Shown piece after piece: positions 4,970-18,041 of a DNA stretch of 32,652 nt. The stretch's first letter is position 1; each line of letters opens with the position of its first letter. This stretch comes from Hassallia byssoidea VB512170. GTDB taxonomy: Bacteria; Cyanobacteriota; Cyanobacteriia; Cyanobacteriales; Nostocaceae. The stretch spans positions 1-32,652 of the forward strand of contig NZ_JTCM02000071.1 in the NCBI RefSeq assembly GCF_000817785.2, read 5' to 3'. The notes below the pieces were generated by a model that ran no database searches, was not told the DNA's origin, and saw nothing but the letters and a program-made list of their open reading frames with translations. The position numbers and the translations under genes were made by a program.

Positions 4970-5005
4970 AAGTAGGGTGCGTTACTTCGTTAACGCACCC
5001 TACTT
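4970..5005 (+). terminator. Strong hairpin after desB (GTAGGGTGCGTTA repeat)
   Basis: GTAGGGTGCGTTA (4972-4984) pairs with TAACGCACCCTAC (4991-5003), extended by A:T pairs at the base and followed by TTTT. This has the form of an intrinsic terminator for desB. The same palindrome recurs at 5831-5860, so it is also a dispersed repeat. A partial copy (GTAGGGTGCG) lies at about 27053. Confidence 0.7.
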
Positions 5006-5040
5006 TTAACTTTTCTTATCGACATGTACATATAACGTAT

Positions 5041-5814
5041 ATGAAATTAATTATCAACCAATCTTCACTCTCGAAAGTTAAGCCAGAATATCAAAAACTG
5101 CTTAACGACTTGCGAGAAAAAGTAGAAAATCGCTTTGGTGTTGACTTGTGTGCTTATTATCTTTTGGGTAGTGTTGGACGTGGGGAAGACCGTCCAGGAA
5201 TTTCAGATATGGATACAGTAGTTATTCTGCGACGTGGTATCACTGATGACGATGAAGTATGGGAAAAAGAAATCAAAGACGAATTTGAACCACAGTATCC
5301 TAAACTTGAGCGTCTTGACATCAGTTCTATGGAAGAAAAAGAATTTGATGACCCAAAAGCAGAACGATTGAGATTTATCTTCAAAACGGATAGTGTGTTG
5401 ATTTGCGGTGAAGATATTACAGCCAACTTTTCATCATATCCGCCAGGATTAAAATTAGCAAAACTTTTGAATGGTAATTACTACAAAGCATTAGAGGAGA
5501 TACAAAAAAATATTATAGAACCAGATGAAGATGACCGAAAGAATCCTAAATATCTAATGGAATACGTGCGGTGGTTCTCAAAAAAAGTGTTGCGTTTGTG
5601 TTTGGGTATTGTCATGGTAGATGAGCCATTCTACACCAGAAATATGCAGGAAATGACGCAAAAGTTTTCGGAATATTATCCGTATTATCAGCCGCAAGCA
5701 GAAACAGCTTTACGTCAATATGTGGAACCAACTAATGATGTAGGCGAAGCACTTGATTTTCTTAACGAAATGAGGGCAACTATATATCAACTGGCGGATG
5801 AAAAGTTAGCATAA
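5041..5814 (+). CDS. Nucleotidyltransferase-fold protein (Pol beta superfamily)
   Basis: A 257-residue protein with an N-terminal nucleotidyltransferase domain. LLGSVGRGE (41-49) supplies the GS motif, and SDMD (55-58) gives two metal-binding acidic residues. A helical C-terminal half follows (about 140-255). Such proteins transfer a nucleotide to a small molecule, protein or RNA; relatives include aminoglycoside nucleotidyltransferases and MNT-type antitoxins. The target cannot be read from sequence. No HEPN partner gene lies next to it. It is cytosolic, with no signal peptide. The ATG at 5041 is preceded by weak purines only. It is bracketed by two copies of the GTAGGGTGCGTTA palindrome and followed by the divergent carbamoyltransferase, so the pair may be an acquired patch. 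Confidence 0.7.
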   Translation: MKLIINQSSLSKVKPEYQKLLNDLREKVENRFGVDLCAYYLLGSVGRGEDRPGISDMDTVVILRRGITDDDEVWEKEIKDEFEPQYPKLERLDISSMEEKEFDDPKAERLRFIFKTDSVLICGEDITANFSSYPPGLKLAKLLNGNYYKALEEIQKNIIEPDEDDRKNPKYLMEYVRWFSKKVLRLCLGIVMVDEPFYTRNMQEMTQKFSEYYPYYQPQAETALRQYVEPTNDVGEALDFLNEMRATIYQLADEKLA

Positions 5815-7525: not shown

Positions 7526-8791
7526 TTAAAACCGTCCATTTCCCTGGACAATATGCTTGACAGTCGTCAAAGTTTCTAAACTAATCAAACCGCGTCGATG
7601 ACCTTTTTGATTAGACATTCCTAAAAATACTGAGTCTCCCCGCGAGGGGTTGCGAGAAAAACGCGGGGAAGCGTTGATGTAGGTAGAAGCGCTGTTGACT
7701 CCTAAAGCAAATTGCCGACTTTCCTGATAAGATTCGGTGACAATGCAATCGGCATGACCGCTGCTGTATTGATTAATCCAGGCGATCGCTACTTCTAAAC
7801 TATCCACCAATTTAAAGGCTACTGTCTTAGTTAAATAAGCACTTCCCCACTCAGTATCTTTAGCTAGCTGCAACTGAGGAAAGGCTTCTACTAGTTCGGC
7901 ATCTGCTTTAATTTCAAAGCCTTTTTCTTTCAAGCTGTTCCACAAAACTGCTAAGGATGACGGTAAAGCTTGGCGATGAATTAATACTTTTTCTATGGCG
8001 TTTACTGGGTCTGGTTCGCTTTGATAGCTGTCTAAAATCACTCCCCGCACCATTTCCAAACTGCCATTCAGCGACCAGTAAAGGTAACAGTTGCCCATTC
8101 CTGATTTTAACACAGGAACGGTTGACTGTCGCACTACTTGTTGTACTAAGCTAGAACGTCCGTAGGGAATGACTAAATTCAGGTATTGGTCTTGGTTGAC
8201 TAAATCTCGAATTGAAGCTCCATGTTCGGCGCTGACTAATTCTAAACAGCCTGATGGTAAATTAACTTCGGCGATCGCACTTTGCAAGGCGTTAGCGATC
8301 GCCGCGTTAGAATGACTAGCTTCAGCACCACCTTTGAGAATGATACTGTTGCCGGTTTTGATGCATAAACCTGCGGCGATCGCTCCTAAATCGGGAAACG
8401 CCTCATAAATAAATGCAATCACTCCCAAAGGCATTAACTGCGAGTAAGTTTGGGAATCGTCTAATTGATAGTCGGCGTTTCTCACCCGTCGCAGCGGATC
8501 TGGCAATTCCCCCAACCTTTGCAAAATCTCCACTGTCGTTTCTAAGCGTTGTGGAGTTAGCTTCAGCCAGTCCAAAATCAACTCAGGCACCGCCATTTCC
8601 CGACTTGCTTCTAGATCCAAGGTATTTGCCTCTAGAATGTCATCAAACGAGCGGTTAAGCGCCTCTGCCATCGCCAACACAGCGCGACTGCGATCTGCTC
8701 CCCTGGTGATGCCCAATTTGAGGGAAGCTAGATAAGCGCGAAAAGCGCTTTTCATGGGTTCGGGGCGATCGTCAAAAACTTCAATCACCAT
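7526..8791 (-). CDS. proA: Gamma-glutamyl phosphate reductase
   Basis: Catalyses the NADPH-dependent reduction of gamma-glutamyl phosphate to glutamate semialdehyde, the second step of proline synthesis in the cytosol. It has 421 residues, normal for ProA. The aldehyde-dehydrogenase-type fold shows PLGVIAFIYEAFPD (121-134), the substrate loop ILKGGAEASHSN (151-162), the catalytic cysteine C235 in KSGMGNCYLY, and the C-terminal region with ASTYINASPRFSRN. The ATG at 8791 (MVIEVFDDRPE) is chosen. A longer reading to 8989 would overlap the upstream membrane protein and add 66 residues foreign to ProA. Only 2 bp separate this ATG from the upstream stop, so translational coupling is likely. No proB is in the window. 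Confidence 0.93.
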   Translation of the reverse strand: MVIEVFDDRPEPMKSAFRAYLASLKLGITRGADRSRAVLAMAEALNRSFDDILEANTLDLEASREMAVPELILDWLKLTPQRLETTVEILQRLGELPDPLRRVRNADYQLDDSQTYSQLMPLGVIAFIYEAFPDLGAIAAGLCIKTGNSIILKGGAEASHSNAAIANALQSAIAEVNLPSGCLELVSAEHGASIRDLVNQDQYLNLVIPYGRSSLVQQVVRQSTVPVLKSGMGNCYLYWSLNGSLEMVRGVILDSYQSEPDPVNAIEKVLIHRQALPSSLAVLWNSLKEKGFEIKADAELVEAFPQLQLAKDTEWGSAYLTKTVAFKLVDSLEVAIAWINQYSSGHADCIVTESYQESRQFALGVNSASTYINASPRFSRNPSRGDSVFLGMSNQKGHRRGLISLETLTTVKHIVQGNGRF

Positions 8792-9270: not shown

Positions 9271-9990
9271 AGGGGGTAGCTATTTTCGTAACAACTTTTT
9301 ATATCAATAGCGTAGGTAGAGAAAACTTGCCACAATTTATCTTAATGGATTTGCCTATTCACACAAATCGGACATCTGACAGCAAAGTTTTAAGAAATTC
9401 TTTCATTTGTGGCTTTCAAAGTAATGCACGTTGCCTTTTTCGCACATTTATTGTATGGGGGATATCTAGTATTGTAACGCGATCGCCAAAACTTTGTTCC
9501 GGCAACTCAATTGTGGTAGGTGTGAGCAATGTGCCGTGAATAATCTTTATTGCTAACCTTGGATTTTCTCAATATCAGTCAGTTGGTGTTAATGATTGCC
9601 CCCACATATCTTTTCTTTAATTTTATTCTCAATCAAGCGATTTGCACTCTTTAAGAATTTAATTTAACTTTCGTTACCTTTAATTAAGTCTAATACACCC
9701 TACACAAAACATGTTATCTATAATTTGACTCTTGGGCAAGAGCGATCGCCCTATAAATCAAATTGATATACCCAGGCTAAAGTTATCTAGGTTAGTGCAG
9801 ATATGGATAACGCCGCAGACATCAAAAAAATCCCCATCCTCCCTGAGTTCACGATGGGTTAAGTTGAGTCACACACTGCGTTTGACTGTATCATAAGACA
9901 GCAAATTCTTGCTCTCATTAACCCTCGTAGAGACGTTCGGTCCGGAACGTCTCTACAATATGTGTAATTTCCCAAACATGATGTAATATG
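9271..9990. other. 720-bp intergenic region
   Basis: No convincing gene. A 70-codon frame from TTG 9327 and a 19-codon frame from ATG 9803 lack ribosome sites and family resemblance. The left part must carry the promoter of the zinc-ribbon/proA operon on the minus strand. The right part holds a hairpin repeat at 9927-9956. The DNA around 9600-9760 is AT-rich. Confidence 0.6.
9927..9956. terminator. GTAGAGACG hairpin downstream of the subtilase
   Basis: GTAGAGACGTTC (9927-9938) pairs perfectly with GAACGTCTCTAC (9945-9956) around a 6-nt loop. It lies 35 bp beyond the stop of the minus-strand protease and could terminate it. A near copy lies at 15391-15417 next to the gyrA stop, so this is a dispersed palindrome used at gene ends. 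Confidence 0.65.
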
Positions 9991-11733
9991 TCATCCCAAT
10001 TTTGTCTTGAAAACTTCAGACACATTCTGCAACAACATCTCGCGCACCGAATCCAAATTATTTGGTTTTGATGACTCAGTTAAAGTTCTTGTTTTCAACT
10101 GATTTGGATCTGACTTTTCGCTCTTTAAAGCTTCGGCTAATTGCTGATAAAGTTCCGGGTTTGTCGCAAAATAAAAAGCTAACTCTTGTCCCACCTCTTT
10201 CAATCGCTGTGGTAATTGAGTTTCTGTTGTTTGCAACAGTTCAGCAAGACTAGCTTGCAGTTTCTTGTTATCTTCAACCACTTCCATAAAATTAGTTTCT
10301 TCTTGACTGTCAAATACTTGCTCCTCAAACAGATGAGCGAAAGTATCGAGTTTTCCGCTGTCTATAGCCGGATGTTGTTCTACTTGCGCTGGGGCAATAA
10401 TTGAACGAGTAATATCATCAGGTAATGGTGCTGCGAGGACTTTTTCTGCATTAACAATTCCTGCACCAAATTTATTCGGCTTCCATGTAGGAAATTGCTC
10501 GCAACTATCACGCAAAATTTGATTAAAGATAAAAGGAATTTTTTCGGCTCCATAGCGTTGGATGAGTTGATCTCTTCCATGATATGACAACCATAAAGCC
10601 GCTATACCCGCGACTTGGGGAGTACATAAAGAAGTGCCGGTACCTGGTTCAACGTCATATTCAATTTCACCGTTTTTCTTTTTAGTTTTTGCACACCAAA
10701 CTCCATCACAAGGCGCCGTGACATCAACTTGCTGTCCCCGCGCTGAACCCTTCCAGATTTCACGCTGCACATCACAGCCAGTAACAGCAATCACTTCTTC
10801 ATAGGCAGCGGGCCAAACTACGTAAGGAACAAAGTTACCAGCAGCTGCTACTATAATTAAACCTCGTTTTTGAGCATAAGTTATCGCACTTCGCAGCCGT
10901 TTGTTGAACAAACCACTACCCAAGCTAATTGAGAGGACATGAGCACCATTATCCGCTGCATACTCGATCGCTTTAGCTAGATTAACTACGCTCAACAGTA
11001 TAACTGAGTAACATACTCGTAAAGGTATTATTTTCGCGCCCGGAGCTACTCCCGTCATTCCTTTTCCGCTTGGATAATTGCGTTGTGCTCCTCTTGGACT
11101 ACTCATCAAACTAGATGTGTATGTACCGTGACTTGGAGCGGGTAACAATACCCCTGAAGGTGCTTCGAGTTCGTCTTTAGCGTCTTTGTCGTTCTTGAGA
11201 AAATCGTAGCCTTTTTTTACAAGTATATTGGTAATAATTTCCGGGTGTTGGGTATAACCTGTATCCGGTAGCCCGATAATAATTCCGTGTCCTGGTGGTC
11301 GATTCGGGTCAGGGAAAAAGCGTGACCATGCCTCAAATACGCGCATCTGTTTGAGACTCCATTCGACATCAGTGTTAAGATTATCTATTGAGCGTTCCAT
11401 GACAACTTCAGGCTCAAGATTGAAGTCTTGGCGATCGCTTAAAGGAACTGCAAACAATGGCTGTGCATCCACAACTCCTGGTTGAGAACGCAGATTATAA
11501 GACTTATCCCAAGCATCTTTGACTGACAAAACTTCTTTGTTAAGAGTGACTTCAAACTCAGTCAGATTATCACCGATTTCTTCAACATTCCAATCTAAAC
11601 CAAATGCTTCGGTGACGATTTCCTGGACTCTTTGCTTTTGTCCCGGCATTGCCATCTCTAGAAAAAATCCTTCAAACTTAGGACTTAAGTCATTTGGATT
11701 GTTTAGGCGATCGCTAATATCCATAAAATTCAC
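9991..11733 (-). CDS. Subtilisin-like serine protease (S8 family)
   Basis: A 580-residue subtilase with a complete triad: D157 in GLPDTG, H202 in SHGTYTSS and S368 in GTGTSLCTPQVAG; N300 in AAAGN is the oxyanion asparagine. A domain of about 120 residues precedes the catalytic core and may act as an inhibitor or propeptide-like domain. There is no signal peptide or membrane helix. The enzyme should therefore be cytosolic unless exported by another route. After the core (to about 430) comes a charged helical tail of about 150 residues. GTSLCTP replaces the usual GTSMATP, with a Cys next to the nucleophile loop. The ATG at 11733 follows AAAGGTG at good spacing. It stands alone, with the promoter expected in 11734-12159. 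Confidence 0.88.
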   Translation of the reverse strand: MNFMDISDRLNNPNDLSPKFEGFFLEMAMPGQKQRVQEIVTEAFGLDWNVEEIGDNLTEFEVTLNKEVLSVKDAWDKSYNLRSQPGVVDAQPLFAVPLSDRQDFNLEPEVVMERSIDNLNTDVEWSLKQMRVFEAWSRFFPDPNRPPGHGIIIGLPDTGYTQHPEIITNILVKKGYDFLKNDKDAKDELEAPSGVLLPAPSHGTYTSSLMSSPRGAQRNYPSGKGMTGVAPGAKIIPLRVCYSVILLSVVNLAKAIEYAADNGAHVLSISLGSGLFNKRLRSAITYAQKRGLIIVAAAGNFVPYVVWPAAYEEVIAVTGCDVQREIWKGSARGQQVDVTAPCDGVWCAKTKKKNGEIEYDVEPGTGTSLCTPQVAGIAALWLSYHGRDQLIQRYGAEKIPFIFNQILRDSCEQFPTWKPNKFGAGIVNAEKVLAAPLPDDITRSIIAPAQVEQHPAIDSGKLDTFAHLFEEQVFDSQEETNFMEVVEDNKKLQASLAELLQTTETQLPQRLKEVGQELAFYFATNPELYQQLAEALKSEKSDPNQLKTRTLTESSKPNNLDSVREMLLQNVSEVFKTKLG

Positions 11734-12159: not shown

Positions 12160-12369
12160 ATGAAAATTAGCGCACGCAATGCTATCAAAGCTACTGTGAA
12201 AAAAATTGAACCAGGCTCTATTAATACTGAAGTAGTATTAGAAATAGCACCTGGAGTAGAAATAACAGCAATAATTACAAAACATTCAGGAGAGACGCTA
12301 GGACTTGCAGAAGGCAAAGAAGCTTATGCAGTAATTAAATCAACCGATGTAATGGTAGCTGTAGAATAG
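12160..12369 (+). CDS. Molbindin (single Mop/TOBE domain)
   Basis: A 69-residue protein made of one Mop/TOBE domain. It begins MKISARNAIKATVKKIEPG and ends AYAVIKSTDVMVAVE, the hallmark first strand and last helix-strand of molbindins. These small cytosolic proteins oligomerise and bind molybdate or tungstate at subunit interfaces, serving as storage or buffering. The length fits a single-domain molbindin. AGGG lies about 12 nt before the ATG, a weak ribosome site. It converges with a second Mop-containing gene 164 bp away, and a shared hairpin sits between them. No molybdate transporter (modABC) is in the window. Confidence 0.85.
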   Translation: MKISARNAIKATVKKIEPGSINTEVVLEIAPGVEITAIITKHSGETLGLAEGKEAYAVIKSTDVMVAVE

Positions 12370-12533: not shown

Positions 12534-12974
12534 TCAGTCCTTAGCGATCGCAATATCGCTGGACTTAATCAGCGCATATGCTTCTGTTCCCTCATATAGT
12601 TCTAAATCATCCGCTGATGCTGTAGTAATAACCGATGTTAACTCAACTTCGTGAATTACCTTTATCGTCACTTGACTGTTAACTTCTCCGCGAATAACTT
12701 GTTTTACCACACCTTTAAGAATATTGCGAGAGCTAACTTTTAAAGGTTTCTTTTGAGTACTAATTTCTATGCGTGGAGTATCAGCACCTTTTTTCTTTGT
12801 TTGCTTGGTTGGTGGTGGTGCTGACGGTGGAGAGGAAAGCGTATTTAAACCCCGCACTAGTTCCCGCAAAATCTCCGTCTTAGTGCGCTGAGACTGCTGA
12901 CAGAACTCTTCGAGAATTTTCCGTTCCTCGTCAGATGTTTGAAAAGTGATCCATCCTTGTTCTTTTCTTGGCAT
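12534..12974 (-). CDS. Ribbon-helix-helix / Mop (TOBE) fusion, candidate oxyanion-responsive regulator
   Basis: 146 residues in two parts. Residues 1-45 (MPRKEQGWITFQTSDEERK...) look like a ribbon-helix-helix DNA-binding unit: a short strand WITFQTS, a helix DEERKILEEFCQQSQ, then TKTEILRELVRGL. A Pro/Lys-rich linker follows (48-75). Residues 78-146 form a Mop/TOBE domain beginning KVSSRNILKGVVKQV and ending EAYALIKSSDIAIAKD, similar to the neighbouring molbindin. The inferred role is a molybdate- or tungstate-sensing transcription factor with a different DNA-binding part from ModE, which has a winged helix. The ATG at 12974 is preferred to GTG 13028, whose extension would run through operator-like palindromes. 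No Shine-Dalgarno is visible, because a palindrome occupies that position. Confidence 0.75.
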   Translation of the reverse strand: MPRKEQGWITFQTSDEERKILEEFCQQSQRTKTEILRELVRGLNTLSSPPSAPPPTKQTKKKGADTPRIEISTQKKPLKVSSRNILKGVVKQVIRGEVNSQVTIKVIHEVELTSVITTASADDLELYEGTEAYALIKSSDIAIAKD

Positions 12975-12979
12975 ATTTA

Positions 12980-13027
12980 TACCAATTTTATTGGTAATTT
13001 TTTCGTTGTGCTGGTAAGATACTACCA
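12980..13027 (-). promoter_or_regulatory. Two TGGTA/TACCA palindromes, candidate operators
   Basis: TACCAAT-ttt-ATTGGTA (12980-12996) and TGGTA-agatac-TACCA (13012-13027) lie just upstream of the RHH-TOBE start. Their centres are 31.5 bp apart, three helical turns, so two dimers would sit on the same face of the DNA. The first palindrome occupies the ribosome-binding position. Autoregulation by the RHH protein is inferred. Confidence 0.5.
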
Positions 13028-13065
13028 AGCGTTAATTTTACGCAAAAAGTTTCTTTAATTACAAT

Positions 13066-13762: not shown

Positions 13763-15355
13763 TCAATCTGTTTTTACCTGTCTTTCTAGAAACCACGCTA
13801 ACGCGGCTAATCCTAATAATAATGGTGTCAACCAATCGCCCCAACGTACATAAAAAGTCTGCGTTTGTCGGCGATAAATTGTTTCGACGTGAGTTTCGTA
13901 AGTATTGTGTCCAGATATCCACAAAGTTCTGCCGTGAGGATCAACAAAAGCTGAATATCCCGTATTCGTTGCCCGCACTCCCCATCTATCAGTTTCAATT
14001 GCCCGCATGATATCTTGGGCATGGTGTTGAGCGGGCATGGCAGCGCTGTAATGGGCATCGTTAGAAGGGCTAAGTATAAATTGTCCACCTGCGGCAGCTT
14101 GACGGCGGAATTGTTCGGAAAAAGCAGATTCGTAACAAATACCAACAATAGCACGACCAAAAGGTGTGTTAAATACTTGATTTGATGAGCCGGGAACTTG
14201 GTGTTCGTCTAAAGGTGATAACCGCTGAATAATACCACCTAAAATTTCCTCAAAGGGAACATACTCGCCAATAGGAACTAACTTTGCTTTGTCGTAACGG
14301 CTGAAAATTTCTCCGTTACCAGTAAAGGTAAATAAGCTATTTGTATAACTGCGTCCTCGTTCTCCAAAAGCGCCAATCCAAGCAACTACGCCTTTTTCTC
14401 GTATTGCTGAGATGAGGGAAGTATTCTTTAAGTCACGCTGGAAAAAAGGTAAAGCTCCTTCTGGAGTTAAAACTGCATTTATACCTTGATTTGCTAATGT
14501 TAAATATCCAGTAGTGTAACCTTCAATAGCGCGACGAAAACCTTCAGGGTAAAGCTTGATTTCGTTGGGGACATTCCCCTGAATAATTCCTACTTTTAAG
14601 GCGGTTTCTGGTGGTTGCGTGAGGGGACGGCTGTATAAACTAAAGCCGATGAGGTGGATAATAAGGCAAAAGGCAAAAGGTAGAAGGTAGAAGAAAGAAT
14701 TTTTACTTCTACCTTCTACCTTTTTACTTTTTCCTTGTATCCAAGCTTCGGCAACCAAGCCATTCACGGCGACAATTGCCGCTGTCACCGCACTTGAGCC
14801 TGAAAGTTGACCTAAATGTAAAATTACGAGATTATACGGAGCTTGAGTGTAAGAAATAGTAGTCCACCACAAAGCGCCATTACTCCAAAGTGATTCTAAC
14901 CCGCACCAAAGGGCTGTGCCAATGAGAAGGCGAGTAAATTTATTTTGGCTGGAAATCGTTCTCATGGCGATCGCCCAAATAGCGACTAATGCGGCACCCC
15001 ACAAAGTTATGAATGTCCAACAAAATAAGGCTATTCCCAAACTCGCCAACCAAGGAACGCCCATCCAAGTCATCGGATGAATTCCAGTAATCCAGGATAG
15101 GGCAAGACCGTGATAACCTATACCCCACAATAAAGGGGAAAGGGGAAAGGGGAAAGGGGAAAGGGGAAAATTCTTTCTTTTCCCTTCTAACTTTTTACTT
15201 TCTTCTATAACTAATACCCATAGGGGGGCTAGGGCTATCCAAGCTAAGAACCATGCATTAAATGGGGCAACGGTAAGCCCCATAAAAATACCGCTAATTA
15301 AAGCAGCTATGAGTTTTGAGTTATGAGTTTTGAATTGGAAATTTTTTAAACTCAT
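13763..15355 (-). CDS. lnt: Apolipoprotein N-acyltransferase
   Basis: Adds the third acyl chain to the N-terminal cysteine of lipoproteins in the plasma membrane. It has 530 residues. The N-terminal half is membrane helices, and the C-terminal half is a nitrilase-like domain with the full triad: E299 in TPEGALPFF, K358 in YDKAKLVPIGEY and C407 in GICYES. Two stretches look foreign: about 52-74 (KKLEGKRKNFPLSPFPFP) and about 208-228 (KSKKVEGRSKNSFF). They are read in frame from heptamer-type repeats, fall in loops between helices, and keep the frame open. The N-terminus also derives from repeat-like DNA, so GGAG 12 nt before ATG 15355 is the main support for the start. It is followed upstream by gyrA on the same strand, with a hairpin between. 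Confidence 0.9.
   Translation of the reverse strand: MSLKNFQFKTHNSKLIAALISGIFMGLTVAPFNAWFLAWIALAPLWVLVIEESKKLEGKRKNFPLSPFPFPLSPLLWGIGYHGLALSWITGIHPMTWMGVPWLASLGIALFCWTFITLWGAALVAIWAIAMRTISSQNKFTRLLIGTALWCGLESLWSNGALWWTTISYTQAPYNLVILHLGQLSGSSAVTAAIVAVNGLVAEAWIQGKSKKVEGRSKNSFFYLLPFAFCLIIHLIGFSLYSRPLTQPPETALKVGIIQGNVPNEIKLYPEGFRRAIEGYTTGYLTLANQGINAVLTPEGALPFFQRDLKNTSLISAIREKGVVAWIGAFGERGRSYTNSLFTFTGNGEIFSRYDKAKLVPIGEYVPFEEILGGIIQRLSPLDEHQVPGSSNQVFNTPFGRAIVGICYESAFSEQFRRQAAAGGQFILSPSNDAHYSAAMPAQHHAQDIMRAIETDRWGVRATNTGYSAFVDPHGRTLWISGHNTYETHVETIYRRQTQTFYVRWGDWLTPLLLGLAALAWFLERQVKTD
14675..14724 (-). repeat. 19-bp inverted repeat inside lnt
   Basis: AAAAGGTAGAAGGTAGAAG (14675-14693) and its exact complement (14706-14724) lie within the lnt coding region and are made of AAGGTAG heptamers. 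Read in frame they give the extra loop around residues 208-228. Confidence 0.85.
15134..15202 (-). repeat. GGGGAAA heptamer array inside lnt
   Basis: Five GGGGAAA units (15134-15169) plus adjoining AAGTTAGAAGG-type sequence are read through in frame by lnt as the FPLSPFPFPLSP segment. A multiple of seven bases can shift frame, so copy number here would decide whether lnt is intact. Confidence 0.85.
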
Positions 15356-15390: not shown

Positions 15391-15419
15391 TACAGACGTT
15401 CGGTGTGGAACGTCTCTAC
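15391..15419 (-). terminator. Hairpin after gyrA
   Basis: AGACGTTC (15394-15401) pairs with GAACGTCT (15408-15415), a variant of the repeat at 9927-9956. It lies 7 bp beyond the gyrA stop on the minus strand, so it may terminate gyrA before lnt. Confidence 0.55.
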
Positions 15420-15425
15420 TCCCAA

Positions 15426-18041
15426 CTATTCCACCTCTGCTACATCAACAGTATCGGGTGTGACATCACCACTATCGGGGGGAACGATCGCTACTCCGGT
15501 AATTGCGTCCTCTTCGTCTAAACGCTGCACTCGCACTCCAGTGGCAGATCGCGATTGGACAGAAATGGCATTTGTCGCCTGTCGGATAATAATACCGCGA
15601 TTAGTAACCATCATGATTTCGTCGTCGCTGTTGACAATGTGCAAAGCCGCCAATTTGTCTTTGGTTTTGCGGTTTTTGAACTTGGTTGCCATTAAACCTT
15701 GACCGGCACGATTTTGCAAGCGGAATTGAGCAACTGGGACGCGCTTGCCATATCCTCCCATTGTAATGACCAACACCCAAGGACCAATACTGCCGTTAGC
15801 GGGAATTTCTTGTGATTCTTCTTCAGGGATGATTTCTTCTGTTTCGATATCCTCGCTCAGGTCAACTTCTGTCTCTGTAACCGTATCCAAGGTGTCAAGA
15901 ATTGCGGCTGGTAAAATTGCCATACCCACCAGTTCGTCGTCCTTCTTCAGCTTCATGGCTTTGACTCCACGAGTTGCCCTACCTAGAGGACGCAATTGCT
16001 CATGGGTACAGCGAAAGTGAATTGCCATACCGAGACGAGAACCAATGATGATGCTGTCTTCTACTCTAGCGCGTCCTACCCAGCGGAGTTGGTCGCCTTC
16101 TTCGAGAGATATGGCTATTAAGCCGTTGGCGCGAATGTTGCTAAATGCTTCTAATGCGGTTTTCTTGATGTTGCCGCCTTTGGTGAGCATTACCAGATAT
16201 TCATCGTTGCTAAACTCGGAAACGGGGACGATAGAAGTGATTTTTTCCTCTTTGGGAATCGGCAGCATTTGCACGATTGGTGTACCGCGTGAGGTGCGGG
16301 AACTCACGGGAATTTGATATGCTTTGACGCAGTAAACAACTCCGCGATCGCTAAAAAATAAAACACTGTCGTGATCGCAACAACTCAAGAAATGCTCAAC
16401 GGTGTCATCATCTTTCACTTTGGCAGCAGCTTTACCTCTGGTAGCACGATTTTGTGCTTCAAAGGTATTCACTGGCATTCGTTTGATGTAACCTTGTTTA
16501 GTAATCAAAATAATCGCTTTTTCATTGGCGATCAAATCAAGGTCATCTAATTCGCCTTCACCTAATGAAATTACCGTGCGGCGCGGTGTGGCATGAGTTG
16601 CTTTTATTTGGGTGATTTCGGTTTCAATGATTTCTAAAATCCGTTCCCGCCGTGCCAATATATCTTGCAAGTCGGCAATTTGATTTTGTAAATCTTCGTG
16701 TTCCAGGCGAATTTTATCTGCTTCTAGTGCTGTTAAACGTCGCAGTTGCATTTGCAAAATTGCGTCCGCTTGCACTTCTGAAAGTCCGTAAGTTGTGATT
16801 AACTCACCTTTTGCCGTAGGTGCATCCGGTGCATGACGAATTAAGTTAATAATTGCATCTAAATGTGATAGGGCAATTAATAACCCTTGTAAGAGATGGT
16901 CGCGTTCTTCGGCTTTTCGCAGTTCGTATTGCGTTCTTCTAGTAATCGCTTGAATGCGAAAATCTAAAAAGACGCTTAAGAACTGTTTGAGGGTCAGAAC
17001 TTGGGGTTCGGAATTTACCAACGCCAGCATATTTGCGCCAAAGTTGGCTTGCAAAGGCGTTTGTTTGTAGAGATTGTTTAAGACGACGCGGGGATAAGCA
17101 TCGCGTTTGAGTTCGATGACGATTCGCATTCCATCGCGATCGCTTTCATCTCGAATATCTGCAATTCCCTCTAAGCGCTTTTCGTTCACCATTTCGGCGA
17201 TTCTTTCAATTAACGCCGCTTTGTTGGTTTGGTAGGGCAGTTCGGTGATGATAATCGCTTCTCTATCCGGGCGTCCGCGCTGTTCTACGGTTTCAATTGT
17301 AGCTACGCCCCGCATGGTTATCGAACCGCGTCCGGTGGTGTAAGCTTCTTTAATTGCTGCTGTTCCCAGAATCTGCGCTCCCGTAGGAAAGTCGGGACCG
17401 TGGATATATTGCATTAACTGGATATCAGTGATTTCCGGGTTGTGAATCAGCGCTACAAAACCATCAATCAATTCGCCCAAGTTGTGGGGAGGGATGTTAG
17501 TTGCCATCCCTACGGCAATCCCAGAAGAACCGTTGAGGAGTAACTGGGGAATACGTGCGGGTAAAACTGTCGGTTCTTGTTGGGAACCGTCGAAGTTATC
17601 GATAAAGTCTACCGTTTCCGATTCGATGTCTTGTAGTAAAGCGGCGCTGGTTAAGGCTTGCAAGCGACATTCAGTGTAACGCATTGCCGCTGGCGGGTCG
17701 TTGTCTACTGAACCGAAGTTACCATGCCCGTTGACGAGAGGCGATCGCATCGAAAAATCTTGCGCCATCCGCACCAAAGCATCATACACTGCCGTGTCGC
17801 CGTGGGGGTGATATTTACCCAACACTTCCCCGACTACACGGGCGCATTTTTTAAAAGGACGGTCTGCTGTCAACCCCAACTCATGCATGGCATAAAGGAT
17901 GCGGCGATGCACAGGTTTCAGACCATCCCTGGCATCTGGCAATGCCCTACCTACAATTACGCTCATCGCGTATTCCAGATAAGACCGGGACATTTCGTTC
18001 CGCAGATCGGTGGGGATTATCCTATCCTGGGAATAAGTCAT
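15426..18041 (-). CDS. gyrA: DNA gyrase subunit A
   Basis: The breakage-reunion subunit of the type IIA topoisomerase that supercoils the chromosome together with GyrB (not in this window). It has 871 residues. The catalytic tyrosine is Y122 in AAMRYTE. The quinolone-resistance region reads [10 protein letters not shown], so position 83 is Thr rather than the Ser of E. coli while D87 is kept. A glutamine-rich coiled coil lies at about 430-500. The C-terminal beta-pinwheel (about 520-830) carries a GyrA-box-like [12 protein letters not shown] and several IK(K/R)-type repeats. An acidic stretch, about 740-770, is rich in E, T and D. The GyrA box favours gyrase over topoisomerase IV, although cyanobacteria can carry a second paralog. 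The start is ATG 18041. Confidence 0.93.

Follow-up and report, generated by a model that had tools for sequence, protein, structure and literature searches.

The window, as we call the whole stretch of 32,652 nucleotides of Hassallia byssoidea VB512170 DNA analyzed here, carries on its minus strand a gene (12534–12974; ATG at 12974, TGA at 12534–12536) for a protein of 146 amino acids, referred to below as RHH-Mop. From its N-terminus, this protein is composed of a predicted ribbon-helix-helix (RHH) head (residues 1–48; 12831–12974, minus strand), a variable Pro/Lys-rich linker (approximately residues 49–76; 12747–12830, minus strand) and a single Mop/TOBE domain (residues 78–145; 12540–12743, minus strand). 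The preliminary description of this DNA had read head, linker and Mop domain as parts of one protein, which is borne out by the domain matches and the model of the head. It had also followed an open reading frame first listed as 12534–13028, and here the reading had to be changed: a start at TTG 13028 does not hold, as the ATG at 12974 is conserved and common to the orthologs and as, in 39 of 88 orthologs, the reading frame can be followed for no more than five codons upstream of the homologous ATG. Were the TTG the start, both palindromes considered below would fall within the gene.

A free-standing Mop gene lies at 12160–12369, on the strand opposite to that of the RHH-Mop gene, in agreement with the molbindin reported earlier next door. 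This is a minority arrangement, as such a gene is found within 1.5 kb of RHH-Mop in 11 of 81 loci, which come from four families. In L091, L092 and L095 (family f33) and in L074 (f15), a Mop gene is located some 0.4 kb downstream of RHH-Mop and on the same strand, in what looks, from the sequences, like an operon-like order in deep branches. Open reading frames of the cluster that we read as ModA are present in 36 of the 81 loci and those of the cluster read as ModBC in 31, and modA stands divergently beside the RHH-Mop gene in 23 of 40 regulator-bearing genomes. Elsewhere in the window, the open reading frames at 9991–11733, 13763–15355 and 15426–18041 presumably encode a subtilisin-type protease, an apolipoprotein N-acyltransferase and the DNA gyrase A subunit, respectively. 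An inverted repeat, AGACGTTC/GAACGTCT, occurs twice (9931–9952 and 15394–15415), and a similar stretch is found upstream of the L007 ortholog; by its letters, it looks like a dispersed repeat.

RHH-Mop is matched (E ≤ 1e-20) in 84 of the 388 genomes of its order, that of the window included, and in a wider survey 63 of 386 genomes gave some match at the same threshold. The full-length protein was seen in the order and in two genomes outside it but of the same class (G432 and G601); two genomes of other classes in the wider survey match through the Mop part alone. In PLSDB, no plasmid record covers 80% of the protein, while 44 records match, through the Mop part in the 20 listed. The set of 88 orthologs used below is free of duplicates and limited to matches that begin at residue 10 or earlier and reach residue 120 or beyond, and it should be considered throughout that these orthologs are related by descent and that counts among them are not independent events. 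Two RHH-Mop genes per genome were seen in G056 and in the genus g7 genomes G240, G265, G356, G374, G378 and G384; in this genus, one RHH-Mop type retains operator 2 (see below), with operator 1 decayed. At L075, two RHH-Mop genes of equal match score (5001–5432 and 7583–8014) stand in tandem, 2.6 kb apart, and a neighboring open reading frame is also repeated.

A single Mop domain behind a predicted RHH head

The C-terminal part is assigned with confidence, as TIGR00638 matches it above its cut-off (65.3 bits against 55; E = 3.7e-18) and Pfam TOBE matches residues 81–142 (E = 5.9e-14). Among 51 aligned sequences, S81, R83, N84, T117, K137 and S138 are invariant, and we take these residues to have a ligand-binding role. 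In molbindins, Mop domains hold molybdate or tungstate between subunits. Both in sequence and in fold, the Mop part of RHH-Mop resembles ModG, MopII, the Eubacterium limosum tungstate-binding protein and ModE. The 146 amino acids contain only one such domain, however, rather than a tandem pair as in ModE, and the ModE family model PRK10676 matches residues 77–146 only, far under its cut-off. The preceding linker was delimited by the alignment and by the low pLDDT values at residues 47–53 and 56–73.

For the head, the full-length AlphaFold2 model is poor, showing both helices and no strand (mean pLDDT 63.6), and the head was therefore modelled separately. Alone, as a monomer, it yielded a strand-helix-helix arrangement with a mean pLDDT of 83.5, and the predicted head contains strands at residues 3–5 and 8–10 and helices at residues 15–28 and 32–47. 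The earlier RHH assignment thus survived separate modelling, with fold matches that are weak: a Foldseek search with the head model returned five matches in total, every one with an E value above 3, of which four (CopG, AmrZ, AtaR and a chain of the MazEF complex) are RHH proteins. A profile search of the PDB with the head found no RHH protein. Turning to families, 35 of 43 diverse members match Pfam RHH_1 at E ≤ 1 (best 2.7e-4), the head in the window scoring 14.8 bits (E = 0.029), that is, below the cut-off of 20.5, and it should be noted that other, unrelated Pfam families match the heads about as weakly. All 43 heads match the PHROGs transcriptional-repressor family 876 (best 1e-4), and 17 of the 48 head positions are invariant among these members. 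Short free-standing proteins in RHH-Mop genomes, moreover, have residues 9–51 in common with the head, and one of six such proteins scanned passes the RHH_1 cut-off. The model, the family matches and the short relatives together suggest that the head probably adopts the RHH fold.

Conserved palindromes upstream of the gene

Two putative operators, both conserved in orthologs, lie upstream of the gene. Operator 1 (TACCAA-N5-TTGGTA; 12980–12996), 5 bp upstream of the ATG, reads TACCAATTTTATTGGTA in the window, i.e. TACCAAT-ttt-ATTGGTA. Operator 2 (13011–13028) reads TTGGTA-N6-TACCAG on the minus strand and has the core TGGTA-agatac-TACCA at 13012–13027. Within it, the hexamer TAGTAT (13019–13024, minus strand) may represent a −10-like element, and letters resembling TAGGAT or TAGTAT are found within operator 2 in many orthologs. 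The operator centers are at 12988 and 13019.5 and hence 31.5 bp apart, so that both palindromes and their distance are as first described.

Within the window alone, these palindromes are unremarkable against chance, whereas across orthologs they are far beyond it. Perfect 7-bp inverted repeats with gaps of 0–8 number 59 in the window when nested ones are counted separately; TGGTA-N6-TACCA with up to one mismatch occurs twice in the window and likewise in 20 of 100 shuffles, and TACCAAT-N3-ATTGGTA with up to two mismatches occurs once, as it does in 12 of 100 shuffles. In the 150 bases upstream of the 88 orthologs, by comparison, operator 1 is present in exact form in 50 and with one mismatch in 6, as opposed to no exact and a single one-mismatch copy in 880 dinucleotide-shuffled upstream regions. 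Operator 2 (TTGGTA-N6-TACCAA, up to two mismatches) precedes 46 of the 88 orthologs, as opposed to 15 of 1760 letter-shuffled regions; in 18 orthologs it occurs without operator 1, and 14 of the 88 have neither palindrome. The palindromes are accordingly kept upstream of orthologs, as self-repression proposed in the preliminary description would have it. Exact copies of operator 1 persist down to 38% protein identity and occur in seven of the eight RHH-Mop-bearing families of the order. Its position is also well kept, with a start 22–24 bases before the ATG in 54 of the 62 orthologs that have it with up to two mismatches. When 55 operator 1 sites were aligned, the hexamers carried 1.6–2.0 bits per position, the middle 0.5–1.4 and the flanks less than 0.8.

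The spacing of the two sites was analyzed in 87 orthologs, the one with fewer than 60 bases upstream being excluded, by scanning for a second inverted pair with a gap of 3–9 and up to two mismatches. Of the 55 orthologs that carry operator 1, 33 have such a pair further up (control 4.3%), and in 31 of them the distance from center to center is 29.0–34.5 bp. The helical phasing claimed earlier thus stands for the 31.5 bp of the window but not as a strict rule for the orthologs, and with this range of distances three helical turns should be regarded as a fair, not a strict, description.

Sites before modA and other genes

A search beyond the orthologs covered samples of 40 genomes with RHH-Mop and 40 without. 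These were chosen by hand from the 83 genomes with a match, the own genome apart, and the 304 without one; G010 (86% complete) was left out and the less complete G027 and G030 were kept in. The modA genes regarded as unlinked, that is, not adjacent to the regulator, were likewise hand-chosen (20 from 18 genomes with RHH-Mop and 20 from 20 genomes without), their starts were set by a simple rule and 350 bases upstream were searched. The operator, with up to one mismatch, was found before 14 of the 20 unlinked modA genes in genomes with RHH-Mop and before 2 of the 20 in genomes without (Fisher p = 2.4e-4); for the exact operator, these numbers are 8 of 20 and 0 of 20 (Fisher p = 3.3e-3). Counted from the assigned modA starts, the sites with up to one mismatch begin 61 to 336 bases upstream, and six of the 20 unlinked modA genes in RHH-Mop genomes have no such site. 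The palindrome is thus found where the preliminary description had suggested looking for it, and, as RHH-Mop and modA have the operator in common, the data point to a Mo-uptake regulon beyond autoregulation. In two genomes in which no full RHH-Mop was found, modA carries a one-mismatch operator (L245 in G333 and L253 in G286), which may reflect a recent loss of RHH-Mop or another binder.

These numbers should be read against the background of the palindrome. Exact copies number 153 in the genomes with the protein, being present in 40 of 40, and 41 in those without, being present in 26 of 40; individual exact sites were listed for 22 genomes. The 7.5 Mb of the own genome contain 42 sites with up to one mismatch, where a reversed control pattern yields 23. 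Four of the 42 fall within about 14 kb of contig C47, together with three modA-type genes and a modBC fusion: one between modA and a divergent porin, one (with one mismatch) 6 bases before the start of a Crp/Fnr-type gene, one upstream of a PRK03537-type binding protein gene and one after a nifN-like gene, the nif name being read from the sequence. The region of contig C47 at 70191–85857 (L134 and L135) comprises, side by side, two modA genes, a modBC fusion, a PRK03537-type binding protein, a Crp/Fnr-type gene and a SOMB porin, as well as a Mop gene, a VnfR-like regulator and nifH-, nifE- and nifN-like genes (again named from sequence). The Crp/Fnr-type gene itself (72258–73019) sits between modBC and the binding-protein gene and is possibly a second-tier regulator.

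A survey of eleven loci (ten chosen for their richness in sites and one tandem) showed exact sites also in front of porins, PRK03537-type genes, a ModA2-type gene and VnfR-like genes. The last were sampled at 22 places in 16 RHH-Mop genomes and at 10 places in 10 genomes without the protein, excluding G094 and one G361 fragment. An exact site precedes 7 of the 22 and none of the 10 (p = 0.07), with mismatch counts that are either 0 or at least 3. The seven exact operators lie 287–418 bases upstream of the VnfR-like genes, each in a different RHH-Mop genome (L316, L317, L320, L321, L323, L330 and L331). Upstream of the VnfR-like gene of the own genome, no operator site was found.

Alternative explanations

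The repressor reading of these data should be weighed against others. One holds the opposite sign to that of ModE, with RHH-Mop binding the operator when free of Mo, or activating the transport genes in starvation. The sequence itself does not fix the sign of control, and the distances of 61 to 336 bases between the modA sites and the assigned starts leave room for activation. The own-gene operators, however, lie over a −10-like hexamer and beside the start codon, which suits repression, and repression of a transport gene by Mo and W is on record for Anabaena variabilis (PMC4284476); we therefore judge the opposite sign to be unlikely. A different view is that the palindrome belongs to another regulator, chiefly a VnfR-like protein of XRE/PBP-like type, the RHH-Mop gene being merely one of its targets. 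The exact sites before 7 of the 22 VnfR-like genes in RHH-Mop genomes would fit such an owner, as would one of the two modA genes that have a one-mismatch site without RHH-Mop, since its genome, G333, has a VnfR-like protein. When unlinked modA genes are sorted by the regulators present, however, the site is present before 10 of the 12 genes whose genome has RHH-Mop alone, 4 of the 8 with both regulators, 1 of the 7 with just the VnfR-like protein and 1 of the 13 lacking both. The site at modA thus tracks RHH-Mop (RHH-Mop alone versus VnfR-like alone, Fisher p = 0.006), and none of the 10 VnfR-like genes in genomes without RHH-Mop has one, which disfavors VnfR as owner of the operator and makes this view very improbable.

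The palindrome could also work at the RNA level, as a hairpin ahead of the start codon that controls translation rather than transcription, and its regular place 22–24 bases before the ATG in 54 of 62 orthologs would speak for this. Yet the same palindrome lies farther out at other genes (61 to 336 bases at modA, 287 to 418 at VnfR-like genes), and, as the window is without any Rfam family at gathering score, the RNA reading was rejected and is given next to no weight. We give just as little to the view that RHH-Mop stores molybdate and takes no part in regulation, its helical N-terminus being unrelated. Mop proteins have indeed been implicated in Mo storage (PMC5943405), but a head as highly conserved as the one described above, and an operator at modA that follows the presence of the RHH-Mop gene, both argue against it.

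Comparison with known regulators

ModE of Escherichia coli is built of a winged-helix head and two Mop domains. RHH-Mop resembles it in placing a Mop-type oxyanion domain behind a DNA-binding head, in its link to Mo transport genes and in a probable Mo/W co-repressor logic, and differs from it in the predicted RHH head, the single Mop domain and the operator. As it has neither a winged-helix head nor tandem Mop domains, RHH-Mop is not a ModE; ModE structures match it through the Mop part only, and the ModE N-domain model (TIGR00637) gave no match to its head. In a survey of 80 genomes, with the own genome in place of G303, this N-domain was over its cut-off in none, with weak matches below the cut-off in 48 (best E = 8e-7, mostly in open reading frames of more than 300 residues); as for sensitivity, the same search detected the domain in 7 of 14 controls and over the cut-off in 2. 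The domain matches and this survey support the earlier claim of a design distinct from ModE, although, to judge from sequence, RHH-Mop probably works like it.

An RHH head joined to a C-terminal metal-sensing domain is also found in the nickel-responsive repressor NikR, which differs in having an ACT-like Ni domain, rather than a Mop domain for an oxyanion, and another operator. With the molbindins, ModG and the Eubacterium limosum tungstate-binding protein, the Mop domain is common, while the putative DNA-binding head is present only in RHH-Mop. Among cyanobacterial proteins, PMC10272220 describes TrcR of Anabaena sp. PCC 7120 as an autoregulated RHH repressor with sites at or near −10 boxes. 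RHH-Mop would be similar as a cyanobacterial RHH repressor with sites near such boxes, whereas TrcR has an 8-bp consensus site and a translation-related regulon, with a Mop domain unmentioned in its description there.

According to PMC4284476, a Mo-transport gene of Anabaena variabilis can be repressed by tungstate in place of molybdate, and a modE homolog located just upstream of modA is named as the likely regulator. The position of this homolog, as given there, matches that of the RHH-Mop gene in 23 of 40 genomes, and a response to Mo and W is what one would expect of RHH-Mop. By analogy in position and response, the homolog is probably an RHH-Mop. No RHH-Mop regulator was found in the titles and abstract openings of the literature matches listed, and the Anabaena variabilis papers of 2004, 2006 and 2013 may mention one. 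PMC4284476 also presents VnfR1 and VnfR2 as Mo-dependent repressors in a related network. In the own genome, the gene in the vnfR2 position, where a helix-turn-helix regulator would be expected upstream of vnfH, encodes an XRE-type HTH with a PBP-like part, a family other than RHH-Mop, and it is on this position and head that we read it as VnfR.

Proposed function

We hold it likely that RHH-Mop is a one-component molybdate/tungstate-responsive regulator, which most likely represses itself and Mo uptake via TACCAA-N5-TTGGTA. The predicted RHH head would grip these operators, in which the starts of the half-sites lie 11 bp apart in operator 1 and 12 bp apart in operator 2, each half-site presumably taking one RHH dimer, and the single Mop domain would sense molybdate or tungstate by taking up the oxyanion between subunits, as in molbindins. 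The oxyanion-loaded protein would then most likely repress its own promoter, since both the −10-like box and the start region lie under the sites at its own gene; the sign of control is the least certain point of this reading. In trans, repression may extend to modA and the linked modBC, to porins and to oxyanion-binding proteins, and in some genomes to the VnfR-like regulator gene as well. The regulator–operator system is real and conserved, and it appears new among Mo-responsive one-component regulators.

A bolder reading, which we regard as rather doubtful, makes RHH-Mop the master Mo switch in many cyanobacteria, placed above the V-nitrogenase repressor. Molybdate at the Mop-domain interfaces would join several RHH dimers into one particle, which would grip arrays of TACCAA half-sites with their 11–12 bp and approximately 31 bp spacing and shut Mo transport, porins and vnfR together. 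Were this the case, an oxyanion-built complex would help to choose between Mo and V nitrogen fixation.

The likelier reading, self-repression with control of Mo uptake, offers a defined operator and a testable regulon that includes outer-membrane porins and, possibly, a layer above the V-nitrogenase repressors. If true, a Mo regulator has been built twice in bacteria, from the same sensing domain and two unrelated DNA-binding heads. Many cyanobacteria appear to use RHH-Mop to control itself and Mo uptake, the job that ModE does elsewhere, and the protein is thereby a candidate Mo sensor for the heterocyst-forming cyanobacteria and their relatives, which are central to nitrogen fixation.
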